Of a stretch of 64,000 nt of DNA, positions 13,877 through 25,099 are shown in pieces. The notes under the pieces are model-generated. The model was not told the DNA's origin and did not search any database. It saw only the letters and a list, made by a program, of their open reading frames with translations. The translations under genes were made by a program, and so were the position numbers. The DNA comes from Bacteroides sp. (GTDB taxonomy: Bacteria; Bacteroidota; Bacteroidia; Bacteroidales; Muribaculaceae): assembly GCA_014801815.1 (NCBI GenBank), contig JAAVDM010000049.1, positions 1-64,000 on the forward strand, written 5' to 3'. How positions within the stretch are numbered: the stretch's first letter is position 1; every line of letters starts with the position of its first letter.

Positions 13877-15634
13877 TTAGATATCTACTCCCAATTTAGC
13901 AAGTACCTCCTTCAGCGTTTTAGGATCGGAAATATTCTTAACCGTTGTCACACCGAAGTCTACGTTTCTGAACTTGTTGGTAGCCTGATTTACAGTCTCA
14001 GTCAGACCTAATTCCTCTTCGATATATTGTCTCGGTGTCTTTCCGTCAAGATAACCGAGATCACTTTTGGTCAGAAGGAAAAAGAAGTTTATATTCTTCA
14101 GCTTCCGTCCATGTTCCTCAAGTATAGAAGCCAACCGAGAGTAGGTACTTGCCGGCGATGAATGTTCGGACTCATTACGTGTCTTTATCCATACTTTTGC
14201 TTTCGAGCTTACACCGGGCATAAGCGGATCTACCATTGACGGGTCGATAATGAATACTATTGATTCAACATTCTTATAGAACTCCAGAGCTGTGGGAGTA
14301 CGCGACACATTTGTATCAAAGTTCTCACCTGCGACATCATAGAAGAACTGGTGCCAGGGGACAGGCGATAATTTACGTGGTAGCATAAGCTGAACGACTT
14401 TGAACCACTGACGCTGATCAGTCTGCACATTGGCTCCTTTCTTAATACGGTCAGCTATGGCTTGTATCTCAGTATCCGGAGTGGCATCGGTCTGGGTCGC
14501 CTTGGTCTTACGTGTTATAAGATCCAGTTCGGAGTAAAGGAAATAGGTCTTGCCTGATGAACGATGACCTACAATACCGATGTGTTTCTCCGTACCAAAT
14601 GATTTGTCACCGGTATGATGCTCCATATTCTTACAATTCTTACAACGGCGTTTCAGCTTGGCCTTACCATTGAAAATCATGGTAGGAAGCTGTTTATGAG
14701 TATCAGGGTTAGTCTGGTGAAACACTCCGTAAATACCCGGTTGAAGTCCTACCGGATGCACATGGTAGTTATCGACCATATACTCAAAGCCCTTGGTAGA
14801 ACCGCAGGAAGGACACGGACGCCGGATATCGTATATTTTCATCACCAGCCATTCAATACCCATAAGTATACCCATAAATATTATAAGCAGAGCGGCTATA
14901 GCCATAAAGATAACGGCAGGGCCGATAAACACAATGAGAAGCACATCCCAAAGATCTTTGAATATATAGAGAGTCCAGTCAAAGAAATTGAGATTGTTCA
15001 TGAAATCGAAACCCCAGTCGACAGAGAGCTGGCCCACACGTGCTATAGTTTCTTTGTTAACAAGAATCAGAGCGGCTACGATTCCGAATATTATTGCATA
15101 TAACCAGTTCTCGAAGAAAAAGATAATAGCCAGTCCAAGTGTTATCCAGCCTGCCCATACGAGTACAATCAGAAGAATCTTGAACACCCACAGTATACCA
15201 TACGCCCCTAAGCCTACTGCCATCAGAGTCACCATAGCAGCAAGGAAGGACAATATGAGACATCCGGTTAGTATAAGAACATTAATGTAAGGCTCCTTAT
15301 AGAACATCCAAAGCCTTTCCATTTTACCTCTTGTTAAAGGCTTCCATTTATCAAGAGTCTCCGTATTTGCCAAAAGCCATCGTATCACTATCCACATATA
15401 CAATCCGGTCAGAACCACAATCAGCAGATACAGTAACCACGATGGAGCGTTAGACTTTGCATCTACAAGAGCAAAGCGATACAGAATACTGTTCCAATAA
15501 TTCTTCAGAAAACCGACATTACTGTCATTGGTATATTTGACATTGATTTCGGCAGTCTTTGTAGTCATAACACTTCCGGGTGTCGTATATTCACGCTCAA
15601 TAGTTTTGATGTGTTTGCCCCGACTGTTAAACAC
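13877..15634 (-). CDS. membrane-anchored P-loop GTPase (TRAFAC/double-GTPase-like)
   Basis: Multiple N-terminal TM segments; CPSCG...CKNC; Walker A GIVGHRSSGKT; FYDVAGENFD; LLTKSDLGYLD. Called start is GTG; coding-like frame extends upstream to ~15712. Confidence 0.8.
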   Translation of the reverse strand: MFNSRGKHIKTIEREYTTPGSVMTTKTAEINVKYTNDSNVGFLKNYWNSILYRFALVDAKSNAPSWLLYLLIVVLTGLYMWIVIRWLLANTETLDKWKPLTRGKMERLWMFYKEPYINVLILTGCLILSFLAAMVTLMAVGLGAYGILWVFKILLIVLVWAGWITLGLAIIFFFENWLYAIIFGIVAALILVNKETIARVGQLSVDWGFDFMNNLNFFDWTLYIFKDLWDVLLIVFIGPAVIFMAIAALLIIFMGILMGIEWLVMKIYDIRRPCPSCGSTKGFEYMVDNYHVHPVGLQPGIYGVFHQTNPDTHKQLPTMIFNGKAKLKRRCKNCKNMEHHTGDKSFGTEKHIGIVGHRSSGKTYFLYSELDLITRKTKATQTDATPDTEIQAIADRIKKGANVQTDQRQWFKVVQLMLPRKLSPVPWHQFFYDVAGENFDTNVSRTPTALEFYKNVESIVFIIDPSMVDPLMPGVSSKAKVWIKTRNESEHSSPASTYSRLASILEEHGRKLKNINFFFLLTKSDLGYLDGKTPRQYIEEELGLTETVNQATNKFRNVDFGVTTVKNISDPKTLKEVLAKLGVDI

Positions 15635-15742
15635 GTTGGCTTTAGTCCAGTGACCATGGGAGTCTGTCTCATATTTATACGTATATTTGTCAACAGGACA
15701 TAATTTAGCCTTATTATTTTTTTCTTCTTTCTATTATTACTC

Positions 15743-16735
15743 TTATTCCATTTGCTTATCTGAAATTGTCTCATCACGATCAAGCGCTATCCCATCGTTT
15801 GCAAACTTACGGATACGATCAAAAAGAGAAGATTCAAGTAGATTGATAACCCGGGGAACAGATGTTGTATAGTCAACGACAATAAAAAACTCCTCATCTA
15901 TACGTGTAGTATTCTGACTCAGCACCACAATCATGTCAAGGTCTTCAGGCACACCGGTATAATATAAAGTATTAGCCTGAAATTGCAGATGCCGTGTAAG
16001 AGTTAGAGGAAGTTTCGAAAGAGTGTACAGCAGATCCGGGATTTGGCTGTCGTCAAGACGTACTACAAGTTTCTTCGCTTCCACAGTCCCGTCCTTACCT
16101 GCATTTCTGGAGCGATGCATCGCCGTCAGCAGACCTAAGGCTACCTCTGTCAGAAAATTACCATCCTCATAATCAGCCGGAGCGAAAGAAATCTTTTCAG
16201 AAGGTAAAGGAGCAGGATCTCCCACAAGCAGTGTGCGAATCTCGGCATTAGCCGGTGTAAGACGCTTATCTGCAGGGAGAAATTTATTTTGTCTCATCAT
16301 CGCTGCAAACGCCGTAATGTCAGGCTGCTCATTAAATACAGCTAAGTGAGCGATGTAATTAGAGCCGTCACGGCGTGCCGAATCAATATCGGCAAAGAAA
16401 CCGTAATCGCTCACCACATAGAGAGTACGTCCTGCTACCCATACTTTTTTACCATTACTCAGAGTTACTTCACGGAATGTGTACAGCGACGGGTAACAAT
16501 CCTCTATTAACGGGGTAGCTATTATGTCGCTCTCTGTGGCCTTCTGGGCTGTGGGCAGAGAATAATTGACCATTGCCGACTGTACAATCTCAGCGGCCTC
16601 TTCTGAAGTAAGACCCGGACTGTGAGTACGAAGACCGAAGCCGGAAGCACCGGTATTTATGGATTTCTGGGTAGAGCTCCAGATTATCTGCTCGTAAGGA
16701 TATTCCTTCGGCCTGAAAGGATCTGTAATAGTCAT
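15743..16735 (-). CDS. GAP1-like (GTPase-associated protein 1, N-terminal/middle region) protein
   Basis: N-terminal IIWSSTQKSINTGASGFGLRTHSPGL; adjacency to two such GTPases. Confidence 0.65.
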   Translation of the reverse strand: MTITDPFRPKEYPYEQIIWSSTQKSINTGASGFGLRTHSPGLTSEEAAEIVQSAMVNYSLPTAQKATESDIIATPLIEDCYPSLYTFREVTLSNGKKVWVAGRTLYVVSDYGFFADIDSARRDGSNYIAHLAVFNEQPDITAFAAMMRQNKFLPADKRLTPANAEIRTLLVGDPAPLPSEKISFAPADYEDGNFLTEVALGLLTAMHRSRNAGKDGTVEAKKLVVRLDDSQIPDLLYTLSKLPLTLTRHLQFQANTLYYTGVPEDLDMIVVLSQNTTRIDEEFFIVVDYTTSVPRVINLLESSLFDRIRKFANDGIALDRDETISDKQME

Positions 16736-16741
16736 CGGGAC

Positions 16742-17917
16742 TTATTTTTTGAGAGGAAGTGGAAAATTGAGTTTATTTAAAATCCACACTAACGGGTCAA
16801 GTACTCTGAAAGGATTTAACTCGCTTGTCAGATTGGTGCCTTTCGGAGCACTGCCGAGGGCCGAAACTCCGAAGAAGCAGACATTCTTATCGGCATCTTT
16901 CCAGTTATTGTCGATATTATTGATGAAGTCCGGTTGTCTCCATACTCTATCAAGAATACTTTTGATACTCTTGCTGTTCATCTCGAATTCCTTGAGATTT
17001 ATACCGTCAGTCATCAGATAAGGAGAGTTAGTTTTCAGACCGGCTATAGAACAATCCTGAAAACGCTCATCTCCGGAAGTTATATAGTCGATTTTACTGA
17101 AGACAACTGCCATGGGCTTTGAGAACATGGCTTTGGCCTCCTCATTGCCCTCCTGAAAATGACCTAAGAGAGCTGATAGAATAGAATCGAAACCGGTATC
17201 GGCTTTCGGTTTACCGAGACGCTTACGCACTGCGTCGATATTCTCTGTATCCACAAGATATAGAATCGCATCCGATTTGGTAAGAAATTTCACATTCTCG
17301 GCAATGTTGGCCGTCTGTCCGAAATTCTCACCTGCAGTATCATAGAACACTAAATGCATTGACTCTCCTTTAGGAGAAGTCAGAGTGAAAATCATCGGAA
17401 TGCGTGAACGGAAATCGCCTACGGCAGTCTGATCGACACATCTGCTGTTGTTATACAGAGGATTATAAAAATCGTTCTTATAACGGTTTTCAGTCTGTAA
17501 CTCACTTTGCTCGGCCACATTCTTATACTCGAGTCCAAGTCGACCGAGTCTGTTTACATTCCTGCGCAGTTCCTCTATCAACACCGCTATATAGTTCGAC
17601 TTACCGCTGCTTCGCGCTCCTACTATAGAAATGATTTTGCCGCCGTTGAGTACCATGTCGTTAGGTATTCTGTTATGACACTTAGGGCAAAGCATCATGT
17701 AGGTTTTCTTTTTACAGTCAGGACATACGGCTGATTTCGGCGTGCCGAATGACAGCAGTCCCCGCTTCGGCACTATAGAGCGTCCCTGGGGATTCACAGG
17801 TGTAGGTTTCCAGAAATTTTTATATTTCTCATCTTCAACTTTCTTACAACGGCATAGGAAATGTACGTTTGCGCTGTCGAATGATTCGAAACAATAGGGA
17901 CATGTAACTTTACTCAT
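16742..17917 (-). CDS. zinc-ribbon P-loop GTPase (TRAFAC/double-GTPase-like)
   Basis: CPYCFES...CPDCKKKTYMMLCPKCHNRIP; Walker A SIVGARSSGKS; FYDTAGENFG; VFSKIDYI. Confidence 0.82.
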   Translation of the reverse strand: MSKVTCPYCFESFDSANVHFLCRCKKVEDEKYKNFWKPTPVNPQGRSIVPKRGLLSFGTPKSAVCPDCKKKTYMMLCPKCHNRIPNDMVLNGGKIISIVGARSSGKSNYIAVLIEELRRNVNRLGRLGLEYKNVAEQSELQTENRYKNDFYNPLYNNSRCVDQTAVGDFRSRIPMIFTLTSPKGESMHLVFYDTAGENFGQTANIAENVKFLTKSDAILYLVDTENIDAVRKRLGKPKADTGFDSILSALLGHFQEGNEEAKAMFSKPMAVVFSKIDYITSGDERFQDCSIAGLKTNSPYLMTDGINLKEFEMNSKSIKSILDRVWRQPDFINNIDNNWKDADKNVCFFGVSALGSAPKGTNLTSELNPFRVLDPLVWILNKLNFPLPLKK

Positions 17918-17929
17918 GAGGTTTTGAAT

Positions 17930-20560
17930 TTAGGGATTGTTAACTTCCGGTACAATTGTAAGTTGTGAATTTACAGAAAGCTCCACAGGTACGAGACGAA
18001 AATACAAATCGTCTCCCTTTTCAGAAGGTTCGACTGTTATCTCGGCTTTACCACTTCGCAAAGCATTAGCCTTTATAATAGCTGAGGCAGGATGATTAAT
18101 GAGATCGGCAGGCGGAAAACCATTTTGTACCAATACCTTCAGATCACAGGGAAGATCTCCTCCCGGACCCGATAAGGAGAGGACATACTTGTTTGACCTC
18201 AGAAAGCCGAATCTCTTTACTTGCGTTACTTTATCAAAATTGATTATCATTGCCTTCAGAGTGAAGGACTTTTCTGTAATAGGCCCTTCAAGAAGGCCTT
18301 CGGAAGTGTCAGCAACAGACTTTACAGATACATTTACAGATCCGGTACCCTCAGGAACAGGAACGTTAAAGAATCCGTTTGGTCCGGAGCGGTAAACTTT
18401 CCGACTTTGTAGAGCACCGCCATCAAGACTCCATTCCACCTTTGCCTGATCAGAAGCCCCTCATTTCCATTTTAACGATATTCCGTTCTGGCCTCTGCTG
18501 ATTTGAACGGAATCAAGAGCCGATACAGACGATACTTTAACTCCGTCACCTACCACACCTATATTTCCTGACACAGTAACCGGAATAAAATAGTGTAGAC
18601 CGGTGAAATCCTTAGGGACAGTACAGTTATTTCCGGCCACATTAAGGCGTTCGGCAGTAAAAGTATCAATAGACACTACATCGTTACGATTGACCTTGAA
18701 AGGTTTCGAGGAACGGTAAATGAATACCTGGCCTGTTTTAGGCGTTTCCCAGCTGAGACTGGCACGGGAATCTTCCTCACTTACCGATAAAGACACTGCC
18801 TTAGGCTTTTCCTGTGGCATCGCACGCATGGCTATAGGGTTGCCTTTTACTGTACCGCCACGGCCGTCGCTGAATATCGGGGTCAGCGTATAGTTGTAAG
18901 CTTTACCTTTTGACAGTCCGGGGTCTCGGAAAGTCGTACCGCTTGCCATAGCCGGAGTACTGTCATCACGACTTATTTCCATACCGGTCAACCCCTTTAG
19001 AGGTTGCCAGGAAAAAGTGACACTGTTCTCGTCTACATTCATAGCAATATCAGCTGGAACAAGTTGCTGTATAATAACAACAGGTACGGAAGTTGTGCCG
19101 CAGGTAGCCGACATACGTCCGTTGACTTCTGCAAACACTCCATAGTAATATTCAGTGCCGACAGCAGGATTCGGGTCATCAATAACCAGATTGGCTGTTT
19201 TGCCTACTACTTTCCCATCTTTCAGGGAAGTAGGTCGTGCGGCTTCACGGCGAACTACCGTATAGACTGCTCCCTCGATAGGGATAGCTTTCCAACTGAC
19301 CGAAACGGTTTTGTTTGTAACCTTTGCGGTAACAGCTTCAGAAGAGGGTACAGGCATTGAGTCAGCGGTTCGTTTTATTTTGGCTACCAGCTCTTTTGTT
19401 GCTGAATATCCCGGCCATAAATCTTCTGCCTGTACTGCTAATTGTGAAGCTATATTAAGATTCTTACGGGCTACAGCGCTTTCAGCATCAGAAATCAGCT
19501 GTAAAGCCCGGCGCATACCTGTAAAGGAGAAAACGCATCTTACACAACTCATATCTGCCGGTGCAGATTTCGTGCCACACTTAGGACATGTTATGTCAAG
19601 CGGCATAGAACAGTTACGACAATGTTCGGCCTTACGGTCATTGAGCGCACCGCAGAAACGACAGGTTTTCGATGTGGCACTAACAGAACCGTCATCATAC
19701 TGCATACCGAGTTCCTGCGCCTTAGCTGCTATCAGACCTTGTGCAAGAGCCAGTTCAAGCCCGTTGCGTGTACATTCATCGAGCAATTACTTGTACAAAT
19801 CCGGTGCGATGAACTTTCTGTTTATAGAGGCCATCATGGTCATTTTCTCTCCTACAGAATCAAAGCCCGCCTCACGCAGAGCTTTGTCATATCCTTTACG
19901 CAGATTCTGATCGGAAATGAAATCCTGAATAGCCGACATAAGATGGTGTGCTATATCTTTGGCCGGAGTACGTTGCACATCAACAGAATCAGCACGGGTC
20001 TTTGTAGTCAGTACCTGTGAGAAGCGGGTATGGTCAGTGTCGGCAGGTATACCTAAAAACTGATAAATATTCAGAAGGCCGAGTTTTTTCAGATAGCTGT
20101 TGATAGCGTCCATACGTGCTTTAGGCAATGGTTTCACACCGTCGTCATGAATAGGTTTCACAACCGGACCGGAAGTTCTGACCTTAGCCCCTATAATACT
20201 CAGAATATCTTTGGCAGACAAGCCCTTGGATTTAAATTTTCTTTCTACTGCCGTTAGCGCATCAGCATCAATTTCCATGGTGCGCTTATCTACAAATGTA
20301 TTGGCAAAATCACAGACTTCGCTTTTAAGTTCCTGAAGTATCTTATCGGCCTGAGATGCGATATAGGAAGGTTCATTCTGCACTCTGTCGATAGCCTGAG
20401 TAATGAAGTCATTGATTTCAGTGTACTACTCAGGTGTAATCATTCTGCGGTTACGCTTTCCCGTAAGATTCGTCTGTTCTTTTTTAAGAGCAGCTACAAT
20501 TTTCTTAGGGTCACGTTCCGAAGGAGGAACTTTGGAAAGAGTAAATATATTATATGCCAT
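17930..20560 (-). pseudogene. J-like + zinc-ribbon + FN3 protein, single frame interrupted by three in-frame stops (TAG 20426-20428, TAA 19787-19789, TGA 18461-18463)
   Basis: All segments share one frame; ATG at 20558-20560 gives MAYNIFTLSKVPPSERDPKKIVAALKKEQTNLTGKRNRRMITPE*YTEINDFITQAIDRVQNEPS...; FN3 strand continues across the TGA (ISLKWK*GASDQAKVEWSLDGG). Confidence 0.8.
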
Positions 20561-20578: not shown

Positions 20579-22654
20579 TTATTTTATACCCATACTGAAT
20601 TCCTGTGCAATAGAAGAGAACGCAGCATCGAGCTTATCTACAGATGTTAAAATACTCAGAGAATCTTTCGAAGATATTTTTTGTAAAAATTTTTTATCGG
20701 CTTTGCCGAAACCTATCGCAGCAATCTGAATACCGTCGGCTTTAGCCTTTTCGGTCTCATCTATTGCTTTGTTCTTATGATCCCATATACCATCGGTAAG
20801 TATTATGAGAATACGATTGTCTGTAGGAGCCTGCAACAACTGTTTATGACATTTCTCAATCGGTTCACACGCATTACCATAACCGATACGGGCGGAATAG
20901 GTGTCTTTCTCAATTTCGGCTAACGCTGCCATAGCTTTTTCCGGATTAGACTCAAATGTACAGTAATTCATCTGTCTGTCTGAAAAACCCTGAAGCGTAA
21001 TTAAAAAAGAACCTTCCGGCAACTGTCTGATAAACTCGGCAGTAGCCTTACAGGCTTTTTCAATAGCACTACGCCAGCACATTGACCCGGATTCATCAAT
21101 AGTCACTATTATAGACATCGGTACGAAGTTTGAGGCTTTAGGTGCTTCGTATAGCCAGCTGAGATCGTCTTCGAGTTCAACTTTTTCTATCTGAAGCTGC
21201 CGACCTGTATTGAGCTGCCGGCCCTCGACAGAAATTATACCGTTTGCATCATAGCTGTAAGCTATTTCTATTACAGCTCCGTCAGGATTATCAACATGTT
21301 CAATACCGTGAAACAGATATTTCCCGACTACAAGGCATTTATCAATATCCGTTGAGTCTCCCTGCGTCAGATATACTGTCTGTATATTATCACTGCCGCG
21401 CCGTGTACGGAACTTAAGCCTGCGTCTGTCGGTGACAGGTATTTCTTTATTTTTACGTATAATTATGGAATTAACGTACTTTGAACCGTCCGAACTTATA
21501 GCTACAGTACCGAGAGAATGGCTCATCACATCTGCTATTCTGACTCTGCCGGCCAACTGAAAACGCGGGGCTTCTTTAGAACGGCCTCCGATAGCACCGA
21601 GCGACTCACGGGCCTTCATAGAAGCTACAATCGCTGCTCCGAGAGCTACCGCTTCATCGGCGTTAACTCCTGTAAGCGGACGTTTACCGGTCATTTCAGC
21701 AACCCATTCATATACCATCGGCATTCTGGTAGACCCACCCACAAGCAGAGCACCGTCAAGATCATGCCATCCTAAGCCTGCTTCCGAAAGAATATTGTCG
21801 CATATAACCTGAGTGGTGTGAAGCAGAGTCTTCGTCAGCTCTTCAAACTCGGCACGTGTCACGGTATATTTACGTCGCTCACCGTTGCTGCGTACATTTA
21901 TCACTGCCGAACTACGGTTTGACAACTGTTTCTTCAGATTTTCCACAGCGAGTGTAAGATCTGAGAGGCCTTCCATATCCTCCTCAATATCATAACCGGT
22001 AGCGGCCATAAACTTACGGGCGATATGCTTTATGAGCATGTCGTCAAAGTCCTTACCGCCGAGTTTGTGATCTCTGCCCGTAGCCAGTACTTTCAATTGT
22101 CCGCTTTCAATCTGAAGTACTGTAACATCGAATGTGCCGCCCCCAAGGTCATAGACAAGAATACGGCTTCCTTCCTGACGGTTGATGCCATAGGTGATTG
22201 CAGCCGCAGTAGGCTCGTTGAGAATAGCTAAAACCTCAAGGCCTGCTCTTCGGCCGGCCTCTACTGTCTGTGTACGCTGAAAATCGTTGAAATACGCCGG
22301 AATTGTGATAACGGCTTTATGTACAGGATGCCCGAGAAGCTCTTCAGCGCGTGTCTTAAGATGGTTAAGTAGCATTGCCGAAAGCTCCATAGCTGAAGAT
22401 TCTTTATCTCCAGCCGTATAAGTATAGTCAGCCTGCCCCATGTAGCGCTTGAAAAAGAGAGCCACATCTTCTCCGAGCTGCAACATATCTTTAGCTTCGG
22501 CACCTGTTTTTACTTCACCGTCAGGCGAAAACCATACTGCTGAGGGAACCAGTTTATCACCATAGCAATCGGCCAATACGGCAGGTTTGCCGTATTGGTC
22601 GATTGTAGCTACAGCAGAATAAGTGGTTCCAAGGTCAATACCTATGAAATCCAT
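20579..22654 (-). CDS. Hsp70 (DnaK)-like protein fused to C-terminal vWA domain
   Basis: GIDLGTTYSAVA, VYDLGGGTFDVTVLQ, LLVGGSTRMPMV; then IIVTIDESGSM (DxSxS) and IILTDGIWD. Confidence 0.9.
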   Translation of the reverse strand: MDFIGIDLGTTYSAVATIDQYGKPAVLADCYGDKLVPSAVWFSPDGEVKTGAEAKDMLQLGEDVALFFKRYMGQADYTYTAGDKESSAMELSAMLLNHLKTRAEELLGHPVHKAVITIPAYFNDFQRTQTVEAGRRAGLEVLAILNEPTAAAITYGINRQEGSRILVYDLGGGTFDVTVLQIESGQLKVLATGRDHKLGGKDFDDMLIKHIARKFMAATGYDIEEDMEGLSDLTLAVENLKKQLSNRSSAVINVRSNGERRKYTVTRAEFEELTKTLLHTTQVICDNILSEAGLGWHDLDGALLVGGSTRMPMVYEWVAEMTGKRPLTGVNADEAVALGAAIVASMKARESLGAIGGRSKEAPRFQLAGRVRIADVMSHSLGTVAISSDGSKYVNSIIIRKNKEIPVTDRRRLKFRTRRGSDNIQTVYLTQGDSTDIDKCLVVGKYLFHGIEHVDNPDGAVIEIAYSYDANGIISVEGRQLNTGRQLQIEKVELEDDLSWLYEAPKASNFVPMSIIVTIDESGSMCWRSAIEKACKATAEFIRQLPEGSFLITLQGFSDRQMNYCTFESNPEKAMAALAEIEKDTYSARIGYGNACEPIEKCHKQLLQAPTDNRILIILTDGIWDHKNKAIDETEKAKADGIQIAAIGFGKADKKFLQKISSKDSLSILTSVDKLDAAFSSIAQEFSMGIK

Positions 22655-22675: not shown

Positions 22676-23062
22676 TTATATAAGTTTAATGCCGGTCACT
22701 TTAATCTTTTCCTGTGCTTTTTCAACTTCTGAAAGGGCATTCTGAAGCATCATCTCTATATGAGTTGATTTTCCATTGCTGGAAGCATCAGTCACATCCA
22801 CACTCAGCAGACCGGACTTATCTATATTTACAACCACATCAAGCGGTGAATCAGCAGGCAGATTTGGATTAAGAGGGAGTTCCTGATCAGCCAGTTTTGT
22901 ACAGGCATCTTCCGGCACATTTACTTCATCGGAAAGATCTTCGTAAAGTTCGATAAGAACAATCTCCTGATTGGCTTCTACTGTCGTGGCTTTAAATTCA
23001 AAATGATGAGGTACCGCAGTATTACGCATTACTATATTCTTAATACCGCTTACAAACCTCAT
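22676..23062 (-). pseudogene. Hsp70 substrate-binding domain fragment, out of frame with the upstream ATPase domain
   Basis: IVMRNTAVPHHFEF...PLDVVVNIDKSGLLSVDVTDASS; -1 frame continues from upstream gene as ...IEIENVLSRSVAMRF. Confidence 0.82.
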
Positions 23063-23088
23063 GGCTACAGAACGACTCAGGACATTCT

Positions 23089-24267
23089 CTATTTCGATTT
23101 TTTCCCTGAGCGACCTCCTATAGCTCCAAAAATATTATTACTCTCTGCTGCAGCTTTAGTTTCTGCATCTACCAGAGGTTCACCTGAACCATCTTCCTTC
23201 ATGGCATCACTGAATGTAGCGAGATTAATACCATATATGGCGGCACCCTTAGCCACACTCTGGTTCGGGTCGCAGTACTCGATTGGCTTTCCGGGGAATT
23301 CAGTTTCAAGACGTTCCTTCACCTGTTTCATCATTGTCGAACCGCCTACAAGCAAAATCTTATCAAAATCCTTTACTCCCTTAGCAGCTGCCTTCTCAAG
23401 AATATCTTTGGTAAAGCCCATCGTGGTATCAAGAAGAGCTTTAGTCATCTCATCAAACTTCTCGCGTGTCAGCTCAATACGCTCACTATTGAATTTAATG
23501 ATAGTTTTCTCTTTCTGAGTAAGCTGTTTTTTTGCATTCTCGGAACTGAGTTCAAGCTCACCCATCATATCAATGTCATCACGTACAGATGCTGAGTCCT
23601 CGCCCGAAGCGGCGCAGTATTCAGAAATTACATGGTCTATAATTTTGTTATCCCAATCCTTACCACCAAGCTCATGATTGCCACCGGTGACAACCATCTG
23701 GATTTTACCGTTCTCAACACGGAGCATAGTGATATCGAATGTACCTCCGCCAAGGTCATAAACAAGTACCGTCTGTGGCTGATCAACATTGAGGCCATAG
23801 CTGATAGCAGCAGCCGTAGGCTCATTGAGAATATCGAGCACGTTGAGACCTGCGAGTTCTCCGGCAGTTTTTGTAGCGTTACGTTCCTCCATACCGAAGT
23901 AAGCAGGGCAGGTAATAACCACATTTTTCACTTCCTCGCCAAGCTGCTCACCGGCATCTTGTGCAATCTTACGCAGAATAATCGCCGATATTGCCTCAGG
24001 GGTATATTCCTTGTCAAAAGCAAAAAACTTATAATCTCGTTTGCCCATCTGACGTTTGATAACAGAACAGACATTTACCGGATCAGTAGCCAGTGTCTGT
24101 TTAGCCGATTCTCCGACAGAGGTGTTATCGCCCTCTTCGAAAGCTACTACTGAAGGGGTTACCGGAGATGCCTCGGAATTAGGTACTACCTCCGGTTTAC
24201 CGAAGTCATTTACATAAGCGATACAGCTGTAGGTAGTTCCAAGGTCGATACCGAAAATCTTTCCCAT
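23089..24267 (-). CDS. Hsp70 (DnaK)-like ATPase domain, truncated by frameshift
   Basis: GKIFGIDLGTTYSCIAYV, VYDLGGGTFDITMLR, LLVGGSTMMKQV; ends FGAIGGRSGKKSK* at an A6 tract. Confidence 0.9.
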   Translation of the reverse strand: MGKIFGIDLGTTYSCIAYVNDFGKPEVVPNSEASPVTPSVVAFEEGDNTSVGESAKQTLATDPVNVCSVIKRQMGKRDYKFFAFDKEYTPEAISAIILRKIAQDAGEQLGEEVKNVVITCPAYFGMEERNATKTAGELAGLNVLDILNEPTAAAISYGLNVDQPQTVLVYDLGGGTFDITMLRVENGKIQMVVTGGNHELGGKDWDNKIIDHVISEYCAASGEDSASVRDDIDMMGELELSSENAKKQLTQKEKTIIKFNSERIELTREKFDEMTKALLDTTMGFTKDILEKAAAKGVKDFDKILLVGGSTMMKQVKERLETEFPGKPIEYCDPNQSVAKGAAIYGINLATFSDAMKEDGSGEPLVDAETKAAAESNNIFGAIGGRSGKKSK

Positions 24268-24325: not shown

Positions 24326-25099
24326 TTATTTTTTAAGTTTATAAAGTTCCGCTTTTTCCTGACGCAGAATAGTACCGTTCCATGCATATCCCGGACGCAG
24401 TTTTTTTGCTATCCTACCATCAAGTTCCGGATCATCTGTCTCCACCGTCCGTACTACCTGATGAAGTTTACGGTCAAAGAGCGGGTTTTCTCCTTCGCTT
24501 ATCAATACATCAACCCCGTTGTTCTCAAGTAAATCCTCAAGATCAGCCGGAATATTTCTGATAACTTTATGAAGTTGTTCCGGAGTAAGTTTATCAAGAC
24601 GTTCAAGGGCTTTGCGATAATCGTCAAGAATAGTTATCGTTTCAAGAATAAAAGGCTTCAGCAGCTTGGCATAAAGATCATCCTTATACTTCGCCATTTC
24701 CGAGTACATTCTGTCGAACAACTCTGCTTTCTGAGCAGCATACTTGAAATTTTCATTAAGCCTTGTACTTAAAGTTTCGACAGCCGCAGTAAGCGACTCT
24801 ATCTTCTTCTCAAGAGCGTCGATTCTAACATCTGCTTCAGAATTTTCAGTTCCGGGACTTTCATTTTCACAAGAACAGACTGTTTGGGAAGCTTCCTCGC
24901 ATTTCTCTTCAATATCCTCAACTAATGGAATATTATCGTATACATGTAACCTTTGATCAGACTCAGAATCAGACTCTTCTTGAGTGTCAGACTTTGTAGT
25001 ATAAGGAGGTACGGTAGAAGATTGCGCAGATTGAAGTACGAAGTCCTCTTCTTCCTCAGTACGGTAACTATTGAAGGGAGGGGGCAGTGAATCATTCAT
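24326..25099 (-). CDS. GrpE-like nucleotide exchange factor with acidic N-terminus
   Basis: Coiled-coil then LLENNGVDVLISEGENPLFDRKLHQVVRTVETDDPELDGRIAKKLRPGYAWNGTILRQEKAELYKL. Confidence 0.82.
   Translation of the reverse strand: MNDSLPPPFNSYRTEEEEDFVLQSAQSSTVPPYTTKSDTQEESDSESDQRLHVYDNIPLVEDIEEKCEEASQTVCSCENESPGTENSEADVRIDALEKKIESLTAAVETLSTRLNENFKYAAQKAELFDRMYSEMAKYKDDLYAKLLKPFILETITILDDYRKALERLDKLTPEQLHKVIRNIPADLEDLLENNGVDVLISEGENPLFDRKLHQVVRTVETDDPELDGRIAKKLRPGYAWNGTILRQEKAELYKLKK

Follow-up and report, generated by a model that had tools for sequence, protein, structure and literature searches.

Does an Hsp70 gene that is cut in two by a frameshift between its domains encode a regulated product, or is it simply broken? 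The gene in question, Hsp70a, lies in the window (the whole 64,000-nucleotide stretch of DNA analyzed here), and a preliminary description of the sequence had placed a frameshift at an A6 tract between its ATPase and substrate-binding domains (SBD). The assembly does contain that frameshift, with one base fewer than in the congeneric genomes G371 and G441, and it is most simply explained as loss of function in an operon undergoing decay. The break is made up of three features:

23089..24267, minus strand: Hsp70a ATPase domain fragment, 392 aa, ending GRSGKKSK* (Pfam and G371 ortholog)
23098..23103, minus strand: A6 tract (coding strand), one base short compared with the AAAAAG of the sister genomes
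22676..23107, minus strand: linker plus substrate-binding beta domain of Hsp70a, read in the other frame (Pfam, orthologs and 2v7y alignment)

The coding-strand letters at 23089-23109 (minus) are TCA GGG AAA AAA TCG AAA TAG, preceded by GGT CGC. They put the tract (T6 on the plus strand) at 23098-23103, two bases away from the 23096-23101 originally given for it, and the stop of the ATPase ORF at 23089-23091. The open SBD frame reaches upstream to about 23107, and from its first ATG the ORF runs over 22676-23062 and encodes 128 aa. The first ORF matches the ATPase half of the Pfam HSP70 profile and the second matches profile positions 404-507 of 599. The residues that follow the break, IEIENVLSRSVAMRF, align with the linker and SBD start of the solved DnaK 2v7y, VVLLDVTPLSLGIET, so that the break falls directly ahead of the interdomain linker. 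The coding strand, the Pfam placement and the DnaK alignment thus bear out what had been said of the ORF end, of the continuation in another frame and of the position at the linker. Over residues 1-390, the intact 530-aa ortholog in G371 shares 98% identity with the ATPase ORF, whose fusion to the SBD cannot be put down to a chance ORF because G371 and G441 each encode a single 530-aa protein.

Although the system's Hsp70a can be aligned with DnaK over the ATPase domain, linker and SBD-beta, it is lid-less, at about 530 aa, and scores far under the DnaK and HscA equivalog cut-offs, which makes it a divergent, system-specific Hsp70. A DnaK of about 640 aa (about 43% identical) is present in most relatives, and no such match was found in the window's genome, an incomplete draft with an assembly 78.6% complete.

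Orthologs of Hsp70a at E <= 1e-140 occur in 4 of 111 genomes of the genus: the window genome, G371, G441 and G265. In each of the other three genomes a single uninterrupted frame encodes 530-535 aa. At the position of the break, G371 and G441 read GGG AAA AAG ATC and G265 reads CAA AAG ATT; none of the three has an A6. Further afield, 79 homologs were fetched from bacterial and archaeal genomes that range from Bacteroidales to Methanosarcina, and in every one the Hsp70 frame is long and unsplit. This rules out conservation of either a split or a shift site; family members encoded as two polypeptides, which the preliminary description had considered, are absent from those examined. Among 23 homologs read codon by codon, L098 is the sole one with a stop in the match, past the end of the SBD. 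L079 and G441:C43 are one and the same contig. Neither the shift site nor the frame overlap is conserved in the orthologs examined, and viral contigs, also searched, yielded no relative. By these comparisons, the split and the A6 homopolymer are private to the window genome. A fixed single-base deletion, as had been proposed, fits the site, but the closest relatives carry AAAAAG and not the A7 from which it was thought to derive, so the base that went missing could be either the G of AAAAAGA or, if an A7 arose in between, one of its As.

Hsp70a is the second gene of a co-oriented run of seven, separated by gaps of 6-63 bases in G371: GrpE, Hsp70a, Hsp70b-vWA, zinc-ribbon/FNIII, zinc-ribbon DO-GTPase, GAP1-like and transmembrane (TM) DO-GTPase. 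Its companions in the window are in unequal states of repair:

24326..25099, minus strand: GrpE-like nucleotide exchange factor, first gene of the operon, intact (Pfam PF01025, E 1.1e-16)
20579..22654, minus strand: intact 691-aa Hsp70b carrying a fused vWA domain at its C terminus (Pfam HSP70 and VWA)
17933..20560, minus strand: zinc-ribbon/FNIII pseudogene (876 aa in relatives), interrupted in frame by three nonsense codons; the gene is open in G371, G441 and G265
16745..17917, minus strand: DO-GTPase with N-terminal zinc ribbons, 391 aa, intact (Pfam DO-GTPase2, E 1.7e-9)
15746..16735, minus strand: GAP1-like gene, cut by a deletion to the first 325 of 736 residues
15768..15800, no strand: deletion junction, about 1.9 kb lost (1947 bases in G371, 33 in the window)
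13880..15730, minus strand: TM DO-GTPase gene lacking about 226 N-terminal residues of 843

This operon-wide damage was absent from the preliminary description. Over 876 codons the FNIII gene and its orthologs are collinear, but the window copy is interrupted by TAG at 20428-20426, TAA at 19789-19787 and TGA at 18463-18461, where G371 has CAG, GAA and TGG. Reassignment of a stop codon was considered for this gene and rejected, since three different stop codons are involved. Downstream, the deletion fuses the GAP1 and TM-GTPase genes out of frame. The relatives keep the system whole as far as it can be followed: all seven genes are kept in G371, G265 has matches to all seven over their length, and in G441 the FNIII gene is open and the GAP1 gene is open up to the contig end. 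Hsp70b-vWA has a full-length match in each of these three genomes and adjoins Hsp70a in related genomes.

The gene content resembles that of the GAP1-N2 GTPase-centric systems with an Hsp70/GrpE theme, conflict systems predicted from genome context only (eLife 2020;9:e52696, PMC7159879). As there, the operon combines Hsp70, GrpE, an FNIII protein, a GAP1-like protein and two DO-GTPases, one with N-terminal zinc ribbons (recognized here from cysteine spacing) and the other with transmembrane segments. It differs from the described systems in that it comes from Bacteroidales, fuses an Hsp70 to a vWA domain, has a zinc-ribbon FNIII protein in place of a DnaJ/TPR-FNIII one and is decayed in the window. 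PF19993 is over its cut-off in both DO-GTPase genes. The GAP1-N2 match of the GAP1-like protein (E 3.7e-4, 21.0 bits) is under the Pfam cut-off of 24, though position and size fit, and the fn3 match has 25.2 bits (E 2e-5) against a cut-off of 25 in the window fragment and 21.3 bits in G441. With these two matches near or under their cut-offs, membership in the GAP1-N2 DO-GTPase systems with Hsp70/GrpE theme is probable, not proven. By analogy, the operon would be a predicted conflict (immune) system; PADLOC gave no match for its seven proteins.

Could the missing base be nothing more than an error of sequencing or assembly in a homopolymer, the organism's own Hsp70 being intact? The genome is a draft, A6 is a homopolymer and purifying selection is strong on both sides of the break; taken on its own, the A6 site might conceivably be a base-calling error. 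The surroundings argue otherwise. About 0.72 Mb of the window's genome was compared with 1.04 Mb of G371, a gene counting as testable if the G371 ORF had a nearly full-length counterpart in the sample from the window's genome. Two of 69 such ORFs are disrupted, Hsp70a and FNIII, leaving 0 of 67 among the remaining genes and no second frameshift; the reverse comparison gave 1 of 76. (Two G371 candidates on C7, 27314 and 28433, were flagged with stops and set aside, since these stops lie only at or before the starts and so are no lesions.) Together, 15 intact window genes have eight A/T tracts that are six or more bases long; all are unbroken, and so is an A7 on the coding strand elsewhere in the Hsp70a gene. 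Three kinds of lesion packed in one operon, with none in the 67 other genes, do not reflect a base-calling error rate, and the neighboring lesions, substitutions and a deletion, are not products of homopolymer error, which leaves the operon broken in any case. The operon-wide evidence against error is strong, and error as the source of the missing base is quite unlikely.

The readings in which the break is functional fare worse. Programmed -1 ribosomal frameshifting at A6, or slippage during transcription there, would yield a short ATPase-only product together with full-length Hsp70. The tandem AAA AAA lysine codons permit some -1 slippage, constraint continues 3' of the break and a predicted hairpin (z -1.8) spans the site. 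However, that hairpin is unexceptional and encloses the tract instead of lying downstream of it, and the context G AAA AAA T departs from the canonical slippery heptamer, X XXY YYZ, with its downstream stimulatory structure. A6 is also short for RNA polymerase slippage. With shift site and split found in no relative and the partner genes of the operon broken, such recoding is highly improbable, and residual full-length Hsp70a, which slippage could still yield, is not needed to explain anything in the comparison. A phase-variable contingency tract that toggles Hsp70 on and off is barely conceivable: there is a homopolymer where the frame shifts, but it is six long, interrupted (AAAAAG) in G371 and G441 and absent in G265, and so not a conserved repeat. 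The nonsense codons, the large deletion nearby, the undamaged genes elsewhere and the want of a homopolymer in relatives make each of these earlier suggestions, sequencing error included, unlikely. Nor is it likely that both halves are made as a two-subunit split Hsp70, or that the ATPase-only product is itself useful. Reinitiation would be possible, with about 27 bases between the stop and the ATG of the SBD ORF, and an Hsp70 lacking the peptide-binding domain is natural to some GAP1-N2 systems (PMC7159879). But an SBD begun at that ATG would miss the linker as well as its first strand, the orthologs are all unsplit and further genes of the system are broken, and this reading is almost certainly wrong. 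A combined version, in which a leaky A6 gives some full-length Hsp70 along with an ATPase-only product that acts like the SBD-less Hsp70s, would make the change regulatory and the operon partly remodelled; it is very unlikely.

The clustering of lesions in Hsp70, FNIII and GAP1/TM-GTPase points to real, lineage-specific decay. Very probably, then, the whole of a GAP1-N2-type DO-GTPase/Hsp70/GrpE operon is decaying in this genome, and its Hsp70 gene was put out of action by a one-base deletion private to the lineage. In the relatives, intact Hsp70a would be a lid-less chaperone of about 530 aa, thought to partner GrpE, the vWA-Hsp70, the FNIII protein and the GTPases. In the window, translation would halt at the interdomain linker and give at most an ATPase-only fragment, for which coupling to the substrate-binding domain would be impossible, and Hsp70a would have lost its function.

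When did this happen? Parsimony counts of nonsynonymous (N) and synonymous (S) changes along the window branch give 7 N to 82 S for Hsp70a (5 N to 57 S in the ATPase part, 2 N to 25 S in the SBD part). Purifying selection this strong makes the Hsp70a break probably recent, and it is probably among the later events of the decay. The FNIII gene has 15 N to 23 S, three of the N changes being the nonsense codons, against 6 to 39 on the G441 branch (p 0.010, or 0.0045 with Hsp70b included); Hsp70b itself has 15 N to 30 S on the window branch. The significant FNIII excess over the G441 branch, together with the constrained Hsp70a, suggests that the decay of the operon is recent. The same constraint is a counterpoint to decay, since the break must be either very recent or partly bypassed, and three genes, GrpE, Hsp70b and the zinc-ribbon DO-GTPase, have kept open frames. 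Synonymous divergence between the window and G441 is 0.4-0.5 in Hsp70a (22676-24267), which exceeds the 0.13-0.15 of the three genes downstream and suggests that the Hsp70a segment was swapped by recombination, as an exchange of alleles.

An apparent regulatory frameshift thus turns out to be gene decay once the neighbors are read. A predicted, multi-gene, immune-like operon would have been lost in one gut Bacteroidales lineage, with an intact copy retained in sister species, and such a pattern of loss is expected for defence systems that are costly or subject to gain and loss.
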